A DNA stretch of 34,148 bases from Candidatus Bathyarchaeota archaeon. Its GTDB lineage: Archaea > Thermoproteota > Bathyarchaeia > Bathyarchaeales > Bathyarchaeaceae. The position numbers and the translations under genes were made by a program. The notes beneath the pieces were generated by a model, which ran no database searches, was not told the DNA's origin, and worked only from the letters and a program-made list of their open reading frames with translations. The stretch covers positions 1,463,237-1,497,384 of the forward strand of contig CP070754.1 in assembly GCA_020348865.1 (NCBI GenBank), written 5' to 3'. How positions within the stretch are numbered: the stretch's first letter is position 1; each line of letters starts with the position of its first letter. Shown here one piece after another: positions 21,767-30,524 of this stretch.

Positions 21767-21933
21767 ATTTCATGATTTAGCAAAATATATAATGCGGAAA
21801 ATTTCCATAGGTGTTTTGGCTAGACCATGAAAAGCTGTCTACACATCGGCAACAACGTGCAGTATAGTAGCTGTTACGTTAATATAAACCAGAAAAACAT
21901 ATGAGACCATAAACGTGGCCCGGAAACGTCGTC

Positions 21934-22030
21934 AGCCCGGTAGAGAAAGAGTTTTTTCGCCGATTGTAGCGGACAAGCATGGCGGGCTTTGGACCCGTCG
22001 ACGGGAGTTCGAATCTCCCCCGGGCTACCA
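21934..22030 (+). tRNA. tRNA-Gln (anticodon UUG) with D-arm intron and encoded CCA
   Basis: The acceptor strands AGCCCGG (21934-21940) and CCGGGCT (22020-22026) pair fully; A73 and an encoded CCA follow. The T arm is GGGAG-TTCGAAT-CTCCC, and the anticodon arm is GCGGG-CTTTGGA-CCCGT with anticodon TTG. Between T8-A9-G10 and the rest of the D arm lie 21 extra bases. Removing 21944-21964 leaves a normal 76-nt tRNA whose D stem GTGT/GCAT and loop AGCGGACAA match archaeal tRNA-Gln. Mature exons are 21934-21943 and 21965-22030. A TATA-like CCATAAAC about 25 bp upstream fits a tRNA promoter. Confidence 0.88.
21944..21964 (+). other. 21-nt non-canonical tRNA intron with bulge-helix-bulge
   Basis: The predicted splice motif: exon bases CGGT (21938-21941) pair with GCCG (21959-21962) in a 4-bp central helix with one G-U. 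Three-base bulges AG|A and AT|T flank it, each carrying one splice site (after 21943 and after 21964). The intron folds on itself as GAAA(G)/(T)TTTC with a short loop. The outer helix on the exon side is weak (one C-G pair, then a mismatch), so this is a relaxed motif. Position 10/11 in the D arm is unusual; most archaeal introns sit at 37/38. Confidence 0.75.
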
Positions 22031-22323: not shown

Positions 22324-23874
22324 CTATCCAAGATCTCTTTGAGGCAGTACGCGGTCTTCAAATCCCACTAATTTTGCACCTGAAATTGCTGATGTGTCTA
22401 TTGTTAGGGCTCTAAGATCCTCTTTGCTCAACTCCTTGATGCTGCAGTGACCTGCCAACATCGTTAGGGTTCTTATTTCTTCCTTGGTTACCGAAAGGAA
22501 ATTCGCAACCTTCTGAGAGGCCATCTCAGGATTAAGCCTCGCTGTAAGTGCAGGATCTTGGGTCGTTATCCCGATTGGGCAACGACCACTTTGGCAATTG
22601 AAACATGTATAGCAACCCATAGCTATCTCTATCGCCGAAGCCATCCCTACTGCGTCCGCTCCGAGAGCTATGGCCTTTACTACATCAGCTCCTGAGGTTA
22701 CGCCGCCCAAGATTATCAATTTTACATCATGGTAAACGCCCAGCTCTTCCAAGGCTTTGACAGCTGGAGGGATGCAGGCTATAGTCGGCAAACCAGCGTG
22801 CTGAGTTGTCTGTTCGGGAGAAGCACCCGTGCCGCCGTACTTTCCGTCAATTTCCACAGCGTCAGCACCAACCTCAACCGCGATCTTCACATCTTTGTAT
22901 ACTCTTCCTGGTCCCAATTTGATTATTATCGGCTTTTTATACTCAGTTATGTCTCGAAGTATGTCAACTTGATTCTTCAAATGCTTCCTTACGTCGAGAA
23001 TGTCCATATGCCTGGCAGGGCTAAGACAGTCAGTACCCACAGGAATTCCCCTCATTTTCGCAATATCCTCGGTGACTTTCTCTCCGAGAAGGTGTCCGCC
23101 CATACCGGGCTTAGCGCCCTGTCCTATCTTAATCTCGATAGCATCTGCCTTGAGGACGTAATCGACATCAACGCCCCATCTTCCAGTGGACCACTGCGTA
23201 GCTATGTATCCTCCAGGTTTCCATGTTTTCACACCATTCTTAAAGCATTCTTTACTCTTGTATCCATGCACCAAAAGCTCTTCGCCAGAGAAGGACCCTC
23301 CTTCACCAGTGCTAATCAATGTTCCTGCCTTCGCGGTTGCGATGGACATGGCTATCTTGGCTTGTTTAGATATGGCTCCATAGGACATGGCTCCAATCAT
23401 GATGGGGATTTTCATCCTCACGGGCTTCTTGACCTTGCCTTCACCTATTACTACCTCAACATCACACTCCTCTCGGTATTTGTCCAACGGAGCGGGTTCG
23501 GCAAGTTGAGACGGAACAATCAAGAAGTCGTCAAAGTGAGGTAGCGGTCTGAGGGCTCCGAACCCCCTAACGAAATATTTCCCCTTCTCAGCTTTGGTGT
23601 GTATCTCTTCGACCACTCTACTGGTCCAAATCCCTCTTGAGTACATTTCCGGGATGGTTGCTCTCACCCGAATTGCGTTCTGGGGACAGTTATCAACGCA
23701 GAGCCTACAACCCACGCATGCGGCTTCGTTGGCCACGAATGATTTTTCAGCCTCGTCTGAGGCAAAGACGAAGTGGGGGCATACATCGACGCACGTTGCG
23801 CACTTTCCCGGTTCTCTCTGGTTCAGACATCTTCTTGCAGCAATCTCTACAGCGAACGAGCATATCACGGGCAT
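22324..23874 (-). CDS. Ferredoxin-fused glutamate synthase FMN domain (GltB2-like)
   Basis: A protein of about 516 residues. The N-terminus has two 4Fe-4S sites (C-x2-C-x3-CP near 27-35; CVGCRLCVDNCP near 55-66). From about 155 it is the FMN barrel of glutamate synthase: IPIMIGAMSYGAIS, STGEGGSFSGEE, QGAKPGMGGHL, KLGPGR, IDGKYGGTGASP, ILGGVTSGADV, and the 3Fe-4S triad C423-x5-C429-x4-C434 (numbered from 23880). This domain converts 2-oxoglutarate plus ammonia to glutamate, or carries out the related N-methylglutamate chemistry. GATase and GXGXG parts are not in this polypeptide. AAGGAG fits ATG 23874; TTG 23880 would overlap the previous stop (TTGA). Last gene of the operon. Confidence 0.92.
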   Translation of the reverse strand: MPVICSFAVEIAARRCLNQREPGKCATCVDVCPHFVFASDEAEKSFVANEAACVGCRLCVDNCPQNAIRVRATIPEMYSRGIWTSRVVEEIHTKAEKGKYFVRGFGALRPLPHFDDFLIVPSQLAEPAPLDKYREECDVEVVIGEGKVKKPVRMKIPIMIGAMSYGAISKQAKIAMSIATAKAGTLISTGEGGSFSGEELLVHGYKSKECFKNGVKTWKPGGYIATQWSTGRWGVDVDYVLKADAIEIKIGQGAKPGMGGHLLGEKVTEDIAKMRGIPVGTDCLSPARHMDILDVRKHLKNQVDILRDITEYKKPIIIKLGPGRVYKDVKIAVEVGADAVEIDGKYGGTGASPEQTTQHAGLPTIACIPPAVKALEELGVYHDVKLIILGGVTSGADVVKAIALGADAVGMASAIEIAMGCYTCFNCQSGRCPIGITTQDPALTARLNPEMASQKVANFLSVTKEEIRTLTMLAGHCSIKELSKEDLRALTIDTSAISGAKLVGFEDRVLPQRDLG

Positions 23875-23876
23875 TC

Positions 23877-24986
23877 TCAACTCTCCTTCTTCTTTACTTG
23901 AGACAAACCTTCCAATTTCTGGAGAGCCTCCTCATCGACTATGGGCTTCTTTAGACTCTTGATAGCAGCTAAGAGTGTCTTGTCTGTTTCAACTGCTGAG
24001 GCTCTTTTCTTCTTTGACTCTATGAAACTCCTCAGCTCCTTGCGTGTACTTGAGGATGGCTCTCCTAGCTCTATGTAATTCATCTTTGTAGCCGCTCTAA
24101 CTAGTTCCTCACCAAAAGAGGTTCTGATGATTGCTGTTTCAAAACCGGGCTTGGAACCTACACTCCCAACAGCGATGTCCGCTTGTTCTCCTACGAAATC
24201 AACGCACCTAGCGCAGCCTTTCGCCATGAATCTTGCCAATTCTATCAGAGGTATGGTTGCCCTTCCGTTCCCTGTCTGAAACGCAAGTTCTGATCCGTTT
24301 CCAGCAATCTCAATCGTAGAAATGCTCCACAGAGGAATGCCCAACTCTCTTTCGATCTTTGAGAGAACTCCTGGATAGAATGCTCCAGGGCAGAAGTAGC
24401 TTATCTTCAGATACTTCGGTCTCCGGAAAGGCTCCAAGACGCACATAGTTGATGTTTCCAATTTCTTGAGCGCTTGAGCCCAACAAGGTGGGCCAACGAC
24501 AGCCACCCTCTTCGTTCTTCTAGCCCTATTTATCATCTTCAACCCCGCGGAAAACAAGGGGACCGGCAGAGGTGAATCTCTCAAATCCTCTGGTTTGCTT
24601 AGGAATTTGAGTGTTGGCTGGCTGCTCCATCTATCCAGATCCGTGGCAACGATTCTATCAATGGCACCTAGTTCTAAGCCACAAAGCAGTAGATCCTTTG
24701 TCACGCTACCTGACTTTTTAGGCCTCAAAGAGAAAACTTTCCCTAGTGTCTTCGGATTCCACTCAAACATCCTCGGACAGACTTCAATGCATGGTGCTTC
24801 ACACAGCTTGCATGGGTCTATTTCTATTGTTCTATAGCCAGCGAGTCTCGTGAACTCCTTAGTTGTTGGATGACGATTTACGCTCTCATCGAACATCAGT
24901 ACTCCCTTGTTGCATACTGCTGTGCAGAGACCACAGCCAGTACATCTTTCTAAACCCCAGACCTCTTCCTTCAGTTTTTCACTCAT
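23877..24986 (-). CDS. FrhB/FdhB-family Fe-S flavoprotein (coenzyme F420 hydrogenase/dehydrogenase beta subunit type)
   Basis: About 369 residues. An N-terminal pair of Fe-S motifs (CTGCGLCTAVC; CKLCEAPCIEVCP) precedes the FrhB domain: VAVVGPPCWAQALKKL, ISYFCPGAFYPGVL, and CARCVDFVGEQADIAVGSVGS. FrhB proteins pass electrons between FAD, Fe-S clusters and F420 or another carrier; sequence alone does not tell which. In some methanogens an frhB-like gene accompanies a split glutamate synthase, so here it likely feeds electrons to the GltB2-like enzyme. GGAG eight bases before ATG 24986 favours that start; ATG 25010 would overlap hdrB by 4 bp. Its stop overlaps the GltB2 start region. Confidence 0.85.
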   Translation of the reverse strand: MSEKLKEEVWGLERCTGCGLCTAVCNKGVLMFDESVNRHPTTKEFTRLAGYRTIEIDPCKLCEAPCIEVCPRMFEWNPKTLGKVFSLRPKKSGSVTKDLLLCGLELGAIDRIVATDLDRWSSQPTLKFLSKPEDLRDSPLPVPLFSAGLKMINRARRTKRVAVVGPPCWAQALKKLETSTMCVLEPFRRPKYLKISYFCPGAFYPGVLSKIERELGIPLWSISTIEIAGNGSELAFQTGNGRATIPLIELARFMAKGCARCVDFVGEQADIAVGSVGSKPGFETAIIRTSFGEELVRAATKMNYIELGEPSSSTRKELRSFIESKKKRASAVETDKTLLAAIKSLKKPIVDEEALQKLEGLSQVKKKES

Positions 24987-25006
24987 ATCTCTCGCTCCAA
25001 TTGTGT

Positions 25007-25888
25007 TCATTCCATGAAGTCAAGTATTGCATCTGCACTAACTCTATTCATGCCAAGACCAACTTCCTTCTTGTCAAACCCCATACACAAACCAAGTAAT
25101 TGGGTAAACAAGACGACTGGTAGTGTAAACCGCTTATCGACTTTTTTCTCTATTATTGATTGATTGTAATCGAATTGCATCTGACAATACGGGCACAAGC
25201 TCACTATGCAATCTGCCCCCGACACCTTCGCGCTCTGGAGCTTCTTTCCCCCAAGTTTACAGCTCAAGTCTCTATCAAAAGCCAAGATTGGAGCACCACA
25301 ACACCACGACTTAAGCTGCCAATACACGCTTTCAATACCCAGTCCCTCAACAAGCTCATCCAGCATCCTCGAATCCTCTAGGCCTACCGGATGATACGAT
25401 GCAGAGAATCTAGAAAAATGACAGCCCGAGTGCACCGCTGCCTTCAACCCTTCAAATCCTCTAATAATGTAATCTTTCCTCAACTTCTTGAGACCTATAT
25501 CATCATGAATCACCTGAAGTAGGTGTTTCACCTTAACACCGCCTTGGTAATCTAATCCGGCCGTTGAGGAGAGCAGATGTTTCACCTCCTTTCCAAAACC
25601 GGCATCCTCTTCAAGACCAACGTTTGCCTTCATAAACGAGGAGAAGCACTCTGGACAAAGCGTGACTATAGTGTCTAGCCCCTTCTTCTCAGCCATTGCC
25701 AGCACTTGAGCCGATAACGCCGATGCCATGCGGTAGTCCACAGATTTGATTGGCGCAGGCCCACAGCATGGAGCATCCGACATGTCGATGATTTCGACAT
25801 CTAGTTTCCTCATGATACTCCTCGCTGATAGGTCGTACTGTGGCATTCTAGCCAAGGCATAGCATCCTGGGTAATATCCATAACTCAT
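25007..25888 (-). CDS. hdrB: Heterodisulfide reductase subunit B (HdrB-like)
   Basis: A 293-residue protein with two CCG domains. First: YPGCYALAR, APCCGPAP, LCPECFS. Second: SGCHFSR, WCCGAPI, LCPYCQMQFD. Each C...CCG...CxxC set builds half of the two non-cubane [4Fe-4S] clusters that reduce a disulfide in methanogen HdrB. The natural disulfide here is unknown, and a CoM-S-S-CoB heterodisulfide is not implied. The AGGTGA ribosome binding site is formed by the end of hdrC. Neighbours hdrC and hdrA make this an HdrABC unit. Confidence 0.92.
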   Translation of the reverse strand: MSYGYYPGCYALARMPQYDLSARSIMRKLDVEIIDMSDAPCCGPAPIKSVDYRMASALSAQVLAMAEKKGLDTIVTLCPECFSSFMKANVGLEEDAGFGKEVKHLLSSTAGLDYQGGVKVKHLLQVIHDDIGLKKLRKDYIIRGFEGLKAAVHSGCHFSRFSASYHPVGLEDSRMLDELVEGLGIESVYWQLKSWCCGAPILAFDRDLSCKLGGKKLQSAKVSGADCIVSLCPYCQMQFDYNQSIIEKKVDKRFTLPVVLFTQLLGLCMGFDKKEVGLGMNRVSADAILDFME

Positions 25889-25889
25889 C

Positions 25890-26405
25890 TCATCTCACCT
25901 TGAGGATGTCAGCGACTCTCGTCTTGTTTACCATTCCTTTAATCGATTCAGTGTCGATTGAAGGCACACTGGGCAATTTGAGTTTCAACCTCTTCTCCAT
26001 TTGAAACCGGCTTGGGGCAATCAACCTGCCTGTATCATTGAGGTTTTTACAGCTTTCTTCAACTGACCTAGGCACTACGATTCCCTCTCTCAAGGCGACG
26101 TCCCTCATGCCTAGGATTAAACTAGCTAGCTTGACCCCTTGAGGGCATCTTTCAGTACACATATAACACGTGGAGCACTGCCATAGCGCCTTACATCGAA
26201 CAAGTGTGTTCTTTAACCCCAGTTTTATCATTTCAACCATTTCATGTGGTTTAATGTCCATCTCCTCCGCTACAGGACACGACGATGAACATGTCCCACA
26301 CTGGTAACAGCAAGACAATGTTCTTCCCATGTGAGATTTCATTACTTCTTCGAAAAATGTCCTGGAGACTTTACTCAGGTTAGTGGTTCGCTCCACGGTT
26401 CTCAC
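25890..26405 (-). CDS. hdrC: Heterodisulfide reductase subunit C (HdrC-like)
   Basis: A 171-residue soluble protein with two ferredoxin-like clusters: CYQCGTCSSSCPVA (about residues 33-46) and CSTCYMCTERCPQGV (about 77-91). In between is a helix starting MVEMIKLGLKN, as in HdrC. It passes electrons from HdrA to the catalytic HdrB. Start GTG 26405 overlaps the hdrA stop as GTGA; a second GTG at 26396 has a better-spaced AGGTGAG. The stop is followed by hdrB after one base. There is no membrane helix, so this is the cytoplasmic HdrABC type, not HdrDE. Confidence 0.92.
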   Translation of the reverse strand: MRTVERTTNLSKVSRTFFEEVMKSHMGRTLSCCYQCGTCSSSCPVAEEMDIKPHEMVEMIKLGLKNTLVRCKALWQCSTCYMCTERCPQGVKLASLILGMRDVALREGIVVPRSVEESCKNLNDTGRLIAPSRFQMEKRLKLKLPSVPSIDTESIKGMVNKTRVADILKVR

Positions 26406-29400
26406 CTTTTCTTGTACGGGCTAGGCCCAAGTGACTCTAGTTTCTCTGTGAACTCCGCGACTTTTTCTGCAAAAATCTTCCCTTCACCAGCGCTGATCCA
26501 CAGAGTCAAGAACCTCTTTGGGTCTATCATAGTGGTCTTCAACATTTCCTTCAATTTGCCCAGAGCTTCATCGGCCTCGAGGTTTCCAAAGATGTAATGA
26601 CAGTCGCCTTTCTTGCAGCCTCCTATCAAAACTCCGTCGGCTCCCTGCATAAACGAGTAAAGCACGTAAAAGGGGTCAACCATTCCACTGCACATCGTTC
26701 TAACAATTCTTATTGCGGGTGGGTACTGGAAGCGACTAACTCCGGCTGCATTTGCGCCTGCATAGGCGCACCAATTGCAGAGGAAAGCAATGACTTTGGG
26801 CCTGTCTGGACTAGGTTCGGCTAGAGCTGCTCTTATCATCGCCATCGTTTGAGCCCTTGTGAACCCCCTTACTTCTATTGCCCTGCCCGGGCAGTCTGTG
26901 GCACAGGTGCCGCAACCCTTGCACAGGATTGGGTCTATCTCGGCGACCATCCGCCCATGGTCCAATTGAACCATCTTTGGAGCGTTGTACTCACAGATGG
27001 AGACACACGTGCCACATCCGGTGCATTTTTCATAATCTACTGTAGCTATCCGAGGTTCGACCGTGAGTTCACCAAGAACTAGGGGTGTAAGAGCCCTCGA
27101 AGCCGCGGCCAAACCTTGGGTGGCAGCCTCTTCAAGGGATTGAGGGCTATGTGCCATTCCCGCCATGAATAAGCCCTCTGAGGAGAAGTCTATTGGTCTC
27201 ATCTTTGGATGTATTTCTAGAAAGAATCCATCCTCATTGAGAGGCACCTTGAACGTGTGGGAGATGCCATCGGCTTCCTCAGGCGCTATTAATGGGACCG
27301 AGAGGACTAGCTTGTCTACAGGAAGACTAATTCGCTCGCGGAGGACAAGATCATACGCCTCGACGATCTTTTTCTTGTTCTCCATGTAGACCCTTGGCTT
27401 GGACATTTCGTCAAACCTAATGAAGATTATGCCAAGCTCCCGGGCTTTTCTATAAAATCTCTCTCCTTCCAGAGGAAGTCTAATGTCTTCGTAGAATATG
27501 TAAACGTTAGAGGCCGGCTTGGACTTCTTGGCTATCAGTGCTGAATCCAAAGCTTCGGCACAACACCGCTCGGAGCCCCCACAAATTATGAACCCTATCA
27601 CCTCATGTTCCCTAAGGTCTTCGGTCTCCATTATTCTTCTGAATTCACTCACTGTGTAGACAGAATCTAGACTTCCATACCCGTACAAACCTTGGGGATT
27701 CATCTCAACAGCATCAGGCGCGATTATCGCAACGCCCACCTCAAAGCGTCTAGCCTTTTCCGGGTTACTCTGAATTGACACTTCGAAGTGTCCTATTGAT
27801 CCCTTGAATTCGGTTGGCTTCGATGACAGGATTACGTCGATGTTGCCGTGTTTCTCTACAGCTTTAACCAGTTTTTCAAGCTCTGACTTCACGTTAACGT
27901 CCCTGAAGGGCATATGAGGATACTCACTAAACAAACTCCCACTGAGTTTTTCAGATTTCTCAACTAGAAGAACTTTGAACCCGGCATCCGCTATGACCTT
28001 GGAGCATACTAAACCAGCCACAGAACCACCTACAATGAGGGCTGAAGGCGTTATACTTGTACTGAGCTCCTCCAGTGGTTCTAGCATGGTCGACTTGATC
28101 ACCCCCATCCTTACTAGGTCTTTGGCTTTCTCCGTGGCCTCTTCCGGGCATCGTTTATGGACCCAAGAGGCGTGTTCTCGGATGTTGATCATCTCAAAGA
28201 GATAAGGGTTCAATCCAGCTTCTCTGCATATGCTGCGAAATAGAGGTGCATGAGTTGTTGGTGTACAGGCAGCCACAACGACTCTGTTGAGCTTCTCCGC
28301 TACTATAACTTTCTTGATGTGTTCAGTGCCATCTTTGGAGCATGTGTACATGAGGTCTTCTGCGTAGGTGACGTTAGGAAGGGTCTTGGCATACTCTGTT
28401 ACCTCTTTGACGTCAACGACGTTCGCAATGTTAAGACCACAGTGACAGACAAATACCCCTGTTCTGGGCTCGACCATGGAGTGGACCCTTGAGACTTCTG
28501 TTTTGCCTTCGACCTTGGGCTCGACCAAGGGGCTGAAGGGGAGTGCCCGGAGGAGAGCTTCGGTGGTAGCTGCGTGAGCTTGAATCACGCTGTGTGAGAT
28601 GTCCTTGGGTCTCTGCATACAACCGCATATGAATATTCCCGGGACGTTCGTCGCAACATCAAACAAGGGGACAGAGGAATTGTGGAATCCGAATTCATCT
28701 ACCTCTATTCCCAACTTCTTAGCCAATGCTCCATGATTCTTTGTTGGAATCATAGCTGGACAAAGCACTACGAGATCTGTTTGTACCTCTCTCATTTCGC
28801 CAGAAGATATGTCCATGTGACGAACAACAAGTCTACCAGAGAGAGGATCGCGCTGAACTCCTCCGGGTAAGCCCTTGAGATAGTTGATTTTAAACTCTTC
28901 TTTTGCTCTCTTCACAAGTTCTTCATAGCCCTTACCGGATACCCTGAGGTCGTTGTATAGAATGGCGACCTCAATCTCAGGTTCATGTTCTTTGGTCACG
29001 ATAGCCTGTTTTGTGGCGTACATGCAACACACTTGTGAGCAGTAGGACTTTCGCTTCGGCTTCTGGCTCCGGGATCCAACACATTGGATGAATAAGATTC
29101 TCTTCGGCTTCGAGCTGTCTGAGATTCTGACGATTTTTCCTCCAGTCGGTCCCGCTGCGTTCATCATTCTCTCGTACTGCATAGAGTAGAGCACATCAGG
29201 AAATTGCCTGAAACCGTACTCTGTGAACGGGGACGAATCAAGGAGGTCATAACCTGTTGCTACGATAATCGACGAAACCTGGATTGACAGCTCTTCTGCT
29301 TTCTGATCGAAGTCTATGGCCTCTGCGGGGCATGCTTTTTCGCAGACTCTGCATACTCCCTTTGTGAGATTTAGGCAAGCATTTTCATCGATTGTCGCTA

Positions 29401-29851
29401 TCGCTGGTACTGCCTGTGGAAAGGGAATGTAGATCGCCTTCCTCTCCATCAAGCCTGCTTCAAACTCGTTTTGAGTTTTGGCTGGACATTTCTCGGTGCA
29501 CAGTCCACATCCTACACATTTGTTTTCATCAACGTATCTCGGCTTCTTAGTGATTCTAACCGTAAAAAAGGTGCCATCAGCTGACCGTTTAACTTCCTTA
29601 ACTTCCGAATACGTTATGAGCTGGGTGTTTGGATGTCGGGCGACCTCCACCATTTTGGGAGCTAAAATGCAAATCGAACAATCAAGTGTGGGAAATGTTT
29701 TGTCGAGTTGAGCCATATGGCCCCCGATGGAGGGGGACCTCTCCACAAGATAAACCTTGAAACCCTTATCCTCTAAGTCCGAAGCCGCTGTGATTCCTGC
29801 TATTCCGCCCCCGATTATCAACACACGATTCTGGACCGTTGCGTCTATCAT
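26402..29851 (-). CDS. hdrA: Giant HdrA-HdrA-MvhD fusion (flavin/Fe-S electron-bifurcation subunit)
   Basis: About 1149 residues (frame open to 29887; ATG 29851 has AGGTG upstream). Positions below count from 29887. Module 1 (about 20-460): FAD motif GGGIAG, an inserted ferredoxin (CVGCGLCTEKCP at 124-134; CxxxxxxxCRVCEKACP at 171-187), and the YCSQVCC HdrA signature. Module 2 (about 475-1010): the HdrA N-terminal CHCG domain, a second nucleotide motif degraded to GGSVAG, no inserted ferredoxin, then two 4Fe-4S sites (CTGCGTCVSICE, CKGCGTCATDCP). C-terminus (1030-1155): an MvhD domain (CNWCAYAG, GGCKKGDCHY) that normally links hydrogenase or formate dehydrogenase to HdrA. A tandem, complementary HdrA of this kind is not the methanogen layout. 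Confidence 0.9.
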   Translation of the reverse strand: MIDATVQNRVLIIGGGIAGITAASDLEDKGFKVYLVERSPSIGGHMAQLDKTFPTLDCSICILAPKMVEVARHPNTQLITYSEVKEVKRSADGTFFTVRITKKPRYVDENKCVGCGLCTEKCPAKTQNEFEAGLMERKAIYIPFPQAVPAIATIDENACLNLTKGVCRVCEKACPAEAIDFDQKAEELSIQVSSIIVATGYDLLDSSPFTEYGFRQFPDVLYSMQYERMMNAAGPTGGKIVRISDSSKPKRILFIQCVGSRSQKPKRKSYCSQVCCMYATKQAIVTKEHEPEIEVAILYNDLRVSGKGYEELVKRAKEEFKINYLKGLPGGVQRDPLSGRLVVRHMDISSGEMREVQTDLVVLCPAMIPTKNHGALAKKLGIEVDEFGFHNSSVPLFDVATNVPGIFICGCMQRPKDISHSVIQAHAATTEALLRALPFSPLVEPKVEGKTEVSRVHSMVEPRTGVFVCHCGLNIANVVDVKEVTEYAKTLPNVTYAEDLMYTCSKDGTEHIKKVIVAEKLNRVVVAACTPTTHAPLFRSICREAGLNPYLFEMINIREHASWVHKRCPEEATEKAKDLVRMGVIKSTMLEPLEELSTSITPSALIVGGSVAGLVCSKVIADAGFKVLLVEKSEKLSGSLFSEYPHMPFRDVNVKSELEKLVKAVEKHGNIDVILSSKPTEFKGSIGHFEVSIQSNPEKARRFEVGVAIIAPDAVEMNPQGLYGYGSLDSVYTVSEFRRIMETEDLREHEVIGFIICGGSERCCAEALDSALIAKKSKPASNVYIFYEDIRLPLEGERFYRKARELGIIFIRFDEMSKPRVYMENKKKIVEAYDLVLRERISLPVDKLVLSVPLIAPEEADGISHTFKVPLNEDGFFLEIHPKMRPIDFSSEGLFMAGMAHSPQSLEEAATQGLAAASRALTPLVLGELTVEPRIATVDYEKCTGCGTCVSICEYNAPKMVQLDHGRMVAEIDPILCKGCGTCATDCPGRAIEVRGFTRAQTMAMIRAALAEPSPDRPKVIAFLCNWCAYAGANAAGVSRFQYPPAIRIVRTMCSGMVDPFYVLYSFMQGADGVLIGGCKKGDCHYIFGNLEADEALGKLKEMLKTTMIDPKRFLTLWISAGEGKIFAEKVAEFTEKLESLGPSPYKKR

Positions 29852-29861
29852 GGGCTTACAC

Positions 29862-30524
29862 CTAGACAAACGGTCTCTCGGAGACACGAACTATCTTTTT
29901 GAACTCATCTGCCTTCGCTTCTATGCCGTATTTTTTCAGCAGAGAACTTAATCTGTTCAAATCCTCGCCGATTAGTTTATCATATTTGGCGTTATGCCCA
30001 AGGGATTTACACTCCCCCTTCAGGTATATAATGCCCCTGATCATGTAATCGCCAAGCTCTTTGCCGGCGTCCCCTGCTATCACTATCTCCCCACCGACCA
30101 TGTATAGGCCCACGACATCTCCAACGTTGCCCTTTACGATCAAAATTCCGCCCTTGAGCATTTGTCCGACCGCATCGTCGGCATCCCCATAGATGACAAT
30201 TGTTCCGCCGCAAGAATACACACCAGCCCCGTAACCAGCGTTTCCCTTTACTATTATCTCACCGTCTTGGGAGCTATCGCCAACGAAAGACCCAGTATTA
30301 CCCTCAATGATTATCCTGGCACCGTTGTTTAGAAAAGCGATATAATCGTTGGCATTTCCTTTTACCGTCAACTCGCTCTCCTGCAAGCCCGGCGCGATTC
30401 CGTAAAGATGTTCTACGTTGACGACGTTGACTCGCACCCCATGGTTTGTGGCAGCCCTAATCTGGGAGTTGACTGCCCCTAGAGATAGACCTTTGCTGTC
30501 AATTGTTATCTCATCCAGTCTCAT
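29862..30524 (-). CDS. GXGXG beta-helix protein (GltB3-like)
   Basis: A 220-residue right-handed beta-helix. Repeats of the form G-x-x-G-x-x-x-x-G-G-x-I-x-V-x-G run through the middle: YGAGVYSCGGTIVIYGDADD, AVGQMLKGGILIVKGNVGD, VVGLYMVGGEIVIAGDAG, LGDYMIRGIIYLKGE. The C-terminal SLGHNAKYDKL then FKKIVRVS matches the stand-alone GXGXG domain of archaeal split glutamate synthase and MgsB of N-methylglutamate synthase. FwdC of formylmethanofuran dehydrogenase shares the repeat but not this context. GGTGA supports ATG 30524. It ends 10 bp before hdrA starts. Confidence 0.88.
   Translation of the reverse strand: MRLDEITIDSKGLSLGAVNSQIRAATNHGVRVNVVNVEHLYGIAPGLQESELTVKGNANDYIAFLNNGARIIIEGNTGSFVGDSSQDGEIIVKGNAGYGAGVYSCGGTIVIYGDADDAVGQMLKGGILIVKGNVGDVVGLYMVGGEIVIAGDAGKELGDYMIRGIIYLKGECKSLGHNAKYDKLIGEDLNRLSSLLKKYGIEAKADEFKKIVRVSERPFV

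Follow-up and report, generated by a model that had tools for sequence, protein, structure and literature searches.

A copy of the acceptor 5′ strand in the leader of an interrupted archaeal tRNA-Gln gene, a probable placeholder for splicing before 5′ maturation

Introduction

Non-canonical archaeal tRNA introns, their relaxed splicing motifs and the tools used to model them are well described (PMC4090602, PMC8450103, PMC6379350, PMC12397907). It is puzzling how, for an intron close to the acceptor stem, the endonuclease finds a motif whose bases also make up the tRNA's most stable stem. Here we describe the tRNA-Gln(UUG) gene at positions 21934-22030 of a 34,148-nt stretch of DNA (the window), which is the terminal 34 kb of a Candidatus Bathyarchaeota genome (G000; 1.497 Mb, 92% complete). 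Very probably this gene encodes a functional tRNA with a relaxed intron between nucleotides 10 and 11 (10/11), and a copy of its acceptor 5′ strand in the leader serves as a placeholder that enables splicing before 5′ maturation. The leader copy is a concrete candidate answer to the acceptor-stem puzzle.

The locus shares features with several described systems. As in other non-canonical bulge-helix-bulge introns (PMC4090602, PMC8450103), the intron is short, has a 4-bp central helix and 3-nt bulges cut 2|1, and would be removed by a protein endonuclease. The example positions listed in PMC4090602 (20/21, 22/23, 25/26 ..., 3/4; the list ends in "etc.") name neither 10/11 nor 8/9, the position in a second gene described below. 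Unlike in the known introns, the central helix here takes bases of the acceptor stem and comes with a copy of the acceptor strand in the leader. Relaxed HBh′ motifs are cleaved by (αβ)2 and ε2 enzymes (PMC6379350). In common with relaxed motifs and (αβ)2 enzymes, the outer helix is missing here, the 5′ bulge and inner helix are intact, and the catalytic endonuclease subunit is closest to crenarchaeal (αβ)2 enzymes; the difference is that the helix here seems to become accessible through an element of the leader. In split tRNAs whose leader and trailer pair (PMC3218864, PMC4090602), a leader outside the mature tRNA is likewise kept by pairing and needed for the splice motif; its partner there is the other intron half, whereas the gene described here is contiguous and its leader has the acceptor 3′ strand as partner. 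For bacterial pre-tRNAs, PMC9433436 reports that pairing of the leader with the 3′ RCCA inhibits RNase P complex formation. In both cases the leader base-pairs in the region of the 3′ end, which should delay 5′ processing; the bacterial leader, as presented there, extends the acceptor stem, whereas the leader described here would replace its 5′ strand. We found no description of a leader copy of the acceptor strand in the open-licence literature searched, a partial coverage that makes its novelty provisional.

An intron between nucleotides 10 and 11

An earlier note, made from the sequence alone, had proposed a tRNA-Gln(UUG) interrupted by a 21-nt intron (21944-21964, + strand) at 10/11 and held that standard tRNA finders might misread it; both proposals hold. 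ARAGORN reads the unspliced 97 bases, which hold both exons and an encoded CCA, as tRNA-Arg(GCG), or as tRNA-Thr(TGT) when introns are allowed, and the match to Rfam RF00005 is limited to model positions 9-63, with 29.9 bits. When 21944-21964 are deleted, ARAGORN calls a 76-nt tRNA-Gln(TTG) with encoded CCA, and the cloverleaf and anticodon UUG are those of an archaeal tRNA-Gln(UUG). Exon 1 (21934-21943, AGCCCGGTAG) provides nt 1-10 of the tRNA. Exon 2 (21965-22030) provides the remainder of the D arm, the anticodon (21989-21991), the variable region, the T arm, the acceptor 3′ strand (22020-22026), A73 (22027) and CCA (22028-22030). The contiguity of the two exons distinguishes the gene from split tRNAs, whose halves come from separate loci.

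Since ARAGORN calls Gln for most neighbouring cuts too, the junction is set not by this program but by intronless Bathyarchaeia orthologues. Three of them (L087, L089 and L101) read AGCCCGGTGG-TGTAGCGGACAAGCATGGCGGG-CTTTGGACCC, and the source gene reads AGCCCGGTAG-TGTAGCGGACAAGCATGGCGGG with the intron taken out; the layouts are identical base for base, and nt 9 is the sole difference in the compared stretch. The cuts predicted from the bulges AG|A (21942-21944, cut after 21943) and AT|T (21963-21965, cut after 21964) coincide exactly with this junction, which the earlier note had placed correctly. Comparison with the orthologues suggests that the intron is precisely excised and the exons ligated.

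We collected 19 tRNA-Gln introns at 10/11 for comparison of the motif. All 19 share a central helix of C5-G, G6-C, G7-C and U8-G, formed in the source gene by CGGT (21938-21941, tRNA nt 5-8, of which nt 5-7 are shared with the acceptor stem) and the intronic GCCG (21959-21962); in G001 the latter reads ACCG, which keeps the last pair as U8-A. All 19 also have the 3-nt bulges RG|A on the 5′ side and AN|U on the 3′ side, together with an inner helix (here 21945-21958, with 21945-21949 pairing 21954-21958) that varies in sequence and conserves its pairing. Inner-arm pairing was observed for 69 of 76 pairs, a value reached by 20 of 20,000 shuffles in a permutation control and by 102 of 20,000 when the 11 distinct arm pairs were used. 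The intron motif is not due to chance. A contiguous outer helix was sought by eye and none was found, C4-G12 being the only pair beside the 3′ bulge. The intron therefore has the 4-bp central helix and two 3-nt bulges of the strict hBHBh′ motif but lacks its outer helix h, and we file it as the relaxed HBh′ type, of which the central helix, 5′ bulge and inner helix are all present. The bulge-helix-bulge of the earlier note thus stands as regards CGGT/GCCG and the two bulges, but not as a strict motif.

Family and pattern searches for tRNA genes in G000 yielded only two tRNA-Gln genes, UUG and CUG, neither of them uninterrupted; the intact second tRNA-Gln(UUG) that the earlier note had named as counter-evidence was not found. 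The tRNA-Gln(CUG) gene (G000:C1, about 914330-914430, minus strand) has a 27-nt intron at 10/11 with a sequence unlike that of the UUG intron. Close matches to the tRNA-Gln of G000 among named genomes are nearly all from Candidatus Bathyarchaeota. The interrupted pattern was detected in 14 of 163 genomes of the order and in 20 of 398 sampled genomes of the phylum, one match of which (L179) is not a tRNA, so that an intron at 10/11, called rare in the earlier note, is at least no one-off. The low covariance-model score of the unspliced gene is what a disrupted pseudogene or an assembly error would give, and yet this explanation is already contradicted and has next to no probability: the exons are intact, no intact tRNA-Gln was found elsewhere in G000, and the same intron position and conserved motif recur in the 14 genomes of the order.

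Several sequences from these searches deserve mention in their own right. Four tRNA-Gln genes (L124 in G006, L125 in G009, L126 in G004 and L180 in G354) have a second D-arm insert beside the 10/11 intron, probably at 24/25 and with the motif CAAG...CUUG, and L107 has an additional insert in the D loop beside its 10/11 intron. Lone tRNA-Gln 3′ fragments without a 5′ half, extending from about the anticodon stem to CCA (L154 in G023, L155 in G009, L153 in G020 and L147 in G013), are likely attachment sites of integrated elements, or possibly something else. An archaeal tRNA-Gln with a 10/11 intron and a leader copy also occurs in a record titled Deltaproteobacteria bacterium isolate bin617 (L093, CP070692.1), which is probably a mixed bin.

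A copy of the acceptor 5′ strand in the leader

The earlier note missed both the competition between central helix and acceptor stem and the leader copy that accompanies it. The splicing helix takes acceptor nt 5-7 as well as nt 8, so the precursor cannot hold this helix and a complete acceptor stem at once. The acceptor 5′ strand, AGCCCGG, has a copy, GGCCCGG (21917-21923, +), ten nucleotides upstream of nt 1, and this copy can form seven base pairs, one of them G.U, with the acceptor 3′ strand CCGGGCT. A TATA-like element, TTAATATAAA (21879-21888, +), lies 38 nt upstream of the copy and is a putative promoter.

The sequence RGCCCGG, 2-19 nt before nt 1 and with 7/7 pairing to CCGGGCU, is present in all 18 intron-bearing Bathyarchaeia tRNA-Gln genes scored, and three further intron genes (in G004, in G007 and L107) carry it. 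Among 45 intronless tRNA-Gln genes none has the full copy (Fisher p = 4e-16, a value that ignores relatedness and so overstates the evidence), and shuffled leaders yield a full match in 2.2% of trials. The copy shows no variation at nt 2-7 in 18/18 and has A or G at nt 1, either of which can pair with U72. The similarity does not extend beyond the acceptor stem: the T that follows this stem in the tRNA also follows the copy in only 1/18, and the flanking bases vary. The base preceding it is T (U) in 14/18 and could pair with A73. The leader copy was also considered as the mature 5′ strand and rejected in this role, nt 8-10 following the second copy only. By a crude consensus scan, 16 of 17 intron genes have their best TATA-like element 29-43 nt upstream of the copy, distances too noisy to locate the copy at a former tRNA start.

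The contrasts within genomes point the same way. In G007, G009, G012 and G020, the UUG gene has both intron and copy and the CUG gene has neither. Of the 27 readable tRNAs of G000, just three have a full copy, which are the two tRNA-Gln genes and a tRNA-Ser(UGA) gene (G000:C1:929079-929200 (+), loci L028/L195) that ARAGORN misreads as tRNA-Leu. Its intron lies at 8/9, with a central helix between nt 3-6 (CGGG) and intronic CCCG and with bulges AU|N and U[G/C]|G, and its leader holds, 7 nt upstream, a copy of the acceptor strand of this tRNA, GCCGGGA. Intronless tRNA-Ser(UGA), GCCGGGAT-GGCAGAG, equals the spliced form of the intron-bearing gene. Orthologues in the order have the copy in 5/5 intron-bearing and 0/13 intronless genes. 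As the copy matches each tRNA's own acceptor, what is conserved is the pairing and not a fixed motif. The anticodon loop of the gene at L028/L195 probably holds a second intron.

In other families of the phylum, interrupted tRNA-Gln genes have a copy 1-9 nt upstream that pairs 7/7 in ten (among them AGCUCGG, with a U.G pair), 6/7 in ten and about 5/7 in one. The internal changes seen in these distant copies replace C by U at nt 3, 4 or 5 and keep a G.U pair. In G334, a Ser gene has a five-base version of the copy. The robust evidence lies in the within-genome contrasts, in the two tRNA species with different acceptors and in the recurrence in different families.

The copy could be a scar without a present role, left by an intron insertion that doubled the acceptor 5′ strand at the 5′ end of the tRNA. 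An insertion-site duplication would produce just such a repeat, and in the scored genes neither copy nor intron is ever found without the other. A scar would be expected to decay, however, and the invariance of nt 2-7 counts against it, as spacers and introns have widely diverged in the same genes; the retained G.U pairs in distant families also speak against a scar, which we consider quite unlikely.

Folding and the proposed order of processing

Partition-function folding predicts a switch between the two structures. Without the leader, the full acceptor stem of the precursor beats the splicing helix, whereas the 5′ piece on its own adopts the splicing hairpin. The mean probability of the central helix in the 18 Gln genes is 0.77 with the native leader versus 0.31 with a scrambled copy, and pairing between leader and 3′ strand is predicted at ~0.99 with the leader present. 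Scrambling the copy shifts the folding of the Ser genes in the same direction in 5/5. These modelled energetics support a placeholder role, short of proof.

The hairpin formed by the 5′ piece alone would suit an ordinary non-canonical intron whose leader has no role and whose hairpin folds co-transcriptionally, ahead of synthesis of the 3′ half, and unusual intron positions are well known in archaeal tRNAs (PMC4090602, PMC8450103). This account leaves the association of copy and intron in both tRNA species (18/18 vs 0/45 and 5/5 vs 0/13) unexplained, and we hold it to be very unlikely. The copy might also pair with the 3′ strand for another purpose, for example to present a tRNA-like acceptor domain to 3′-end processing or modification enzymes prior to splicing; the predicted pairing of ~0.99 is indeed found in nearly all genes, even where the splicing helix is not dominant. 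Yet those interrupted D-arm tRNAs inspected in G003, G334 and G354, where the intron lies deeper in the D arm and the splicing helix spares the acceptor strand, have a single acceptor 5′ strand. In these tRNAs, which have no acceptor conflict, the copy is absent, which ties it to that conflict and not to a disrupted D arm as such, and makes another purpose unlikely.

The placeholder reading builds on what can be read from the genes themselves: the intron, its junction, the motif, the copy, and the co-occurrence of copy and intron in two tRNA species. From these and the predicted fold switch we infer the following course in vivo. The leader copy RGCCCGG, near the transcript start, would occupy the acceptor 3′ strand as a placeholder, and the true 5′ strand would thereby be left available for pairing with the intron. 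The ordinary tRNA-intron endonuclease of the cell would then cut out the intron, and the exons would be joined, presumably by an RtcB-type ligase. Its intron partner gone, the true 5′ strand would displace the placeholder, and the leader would be removed by RNase P. Splicing should in this case precede 5′-end maturation.

Several observations weigh against this reading. Twelve of the 45 intronless leaders reach 6/7 pairing somewhere within 45 nt, the best value in that set. Many copies in distant families pair just 6/7 or 5/7, and the evidence there, which comes from intron-bearing genes only, is weaker. In three of the 18 Gln genes (L071, L135 and L146), the central-helix probability is low despite the copy, and in L081, L136 and the Ser genes L194 and L196 the central helix is good even with a scrambled copy. 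One subunit of the splicing endonuclease is missing from the G000 assembly (see below).

If true, the arrangement is a built-in RNA conformational switch that orders two processing steps. Splicing and 5′ maturation would then follow each other in a fixed order, and the arrangement suggests that sequence outside the mature tRNA is selected for its role in splicing; intron and leader copy together provide a sequence signature for tRNA genes misread by finders. Such acceptor-strand placeholders are likely a general and recurrent device of the Thermoproteota, a conformational switch that would make splicing obligatory before 5′ maturation.

The splicing endonuclease

The earlier note had taken the intron to imply a gene-specific type of splicing endonuclease. 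Nothing of the kind is implied, as G000 has an ordinary catalytic tRNA-intron endonuclease subunit (G000:C1:388395-388649, PF02778 and PF01974). It is closest to crenarchaeal chains, with PDB 2cv8, 3p1z and 3ajv among its best matches, and is of the crenarchaeal type found in (αβ)2 enzymes. The search for the subunits suggested in that note thus succeeded for the catalytic subunit but not for the structural one. Most relatives have two endonuclease genes, and the structural subunit is present in G003 (L138); in G000 neither this subunit nor hisS, its neighbour in G003, was found. The absence of both together suggests an assembly gap, which probably accounts for the missing subunit. In both genomes a tRNA gene lies directly downstream of the catalytic subunit gene, namely tRNA-Cys (388782-388855) in G000 and a tRNA at 64834-64907 following G003:C39:64451-64696.

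Neighbouring genes in the window

On the minus strand of the window, 22324-29887 encode a glutamate-synthase-domain protein, an FrhB/FdhB-like protein, a Cys-rich CCG-domain protein, a ferredoxin-like protein and a large HdrA/FlpD-type fusion. This run of genes looks like a heterodisulfide-reductase-like electron-transfer cluster.
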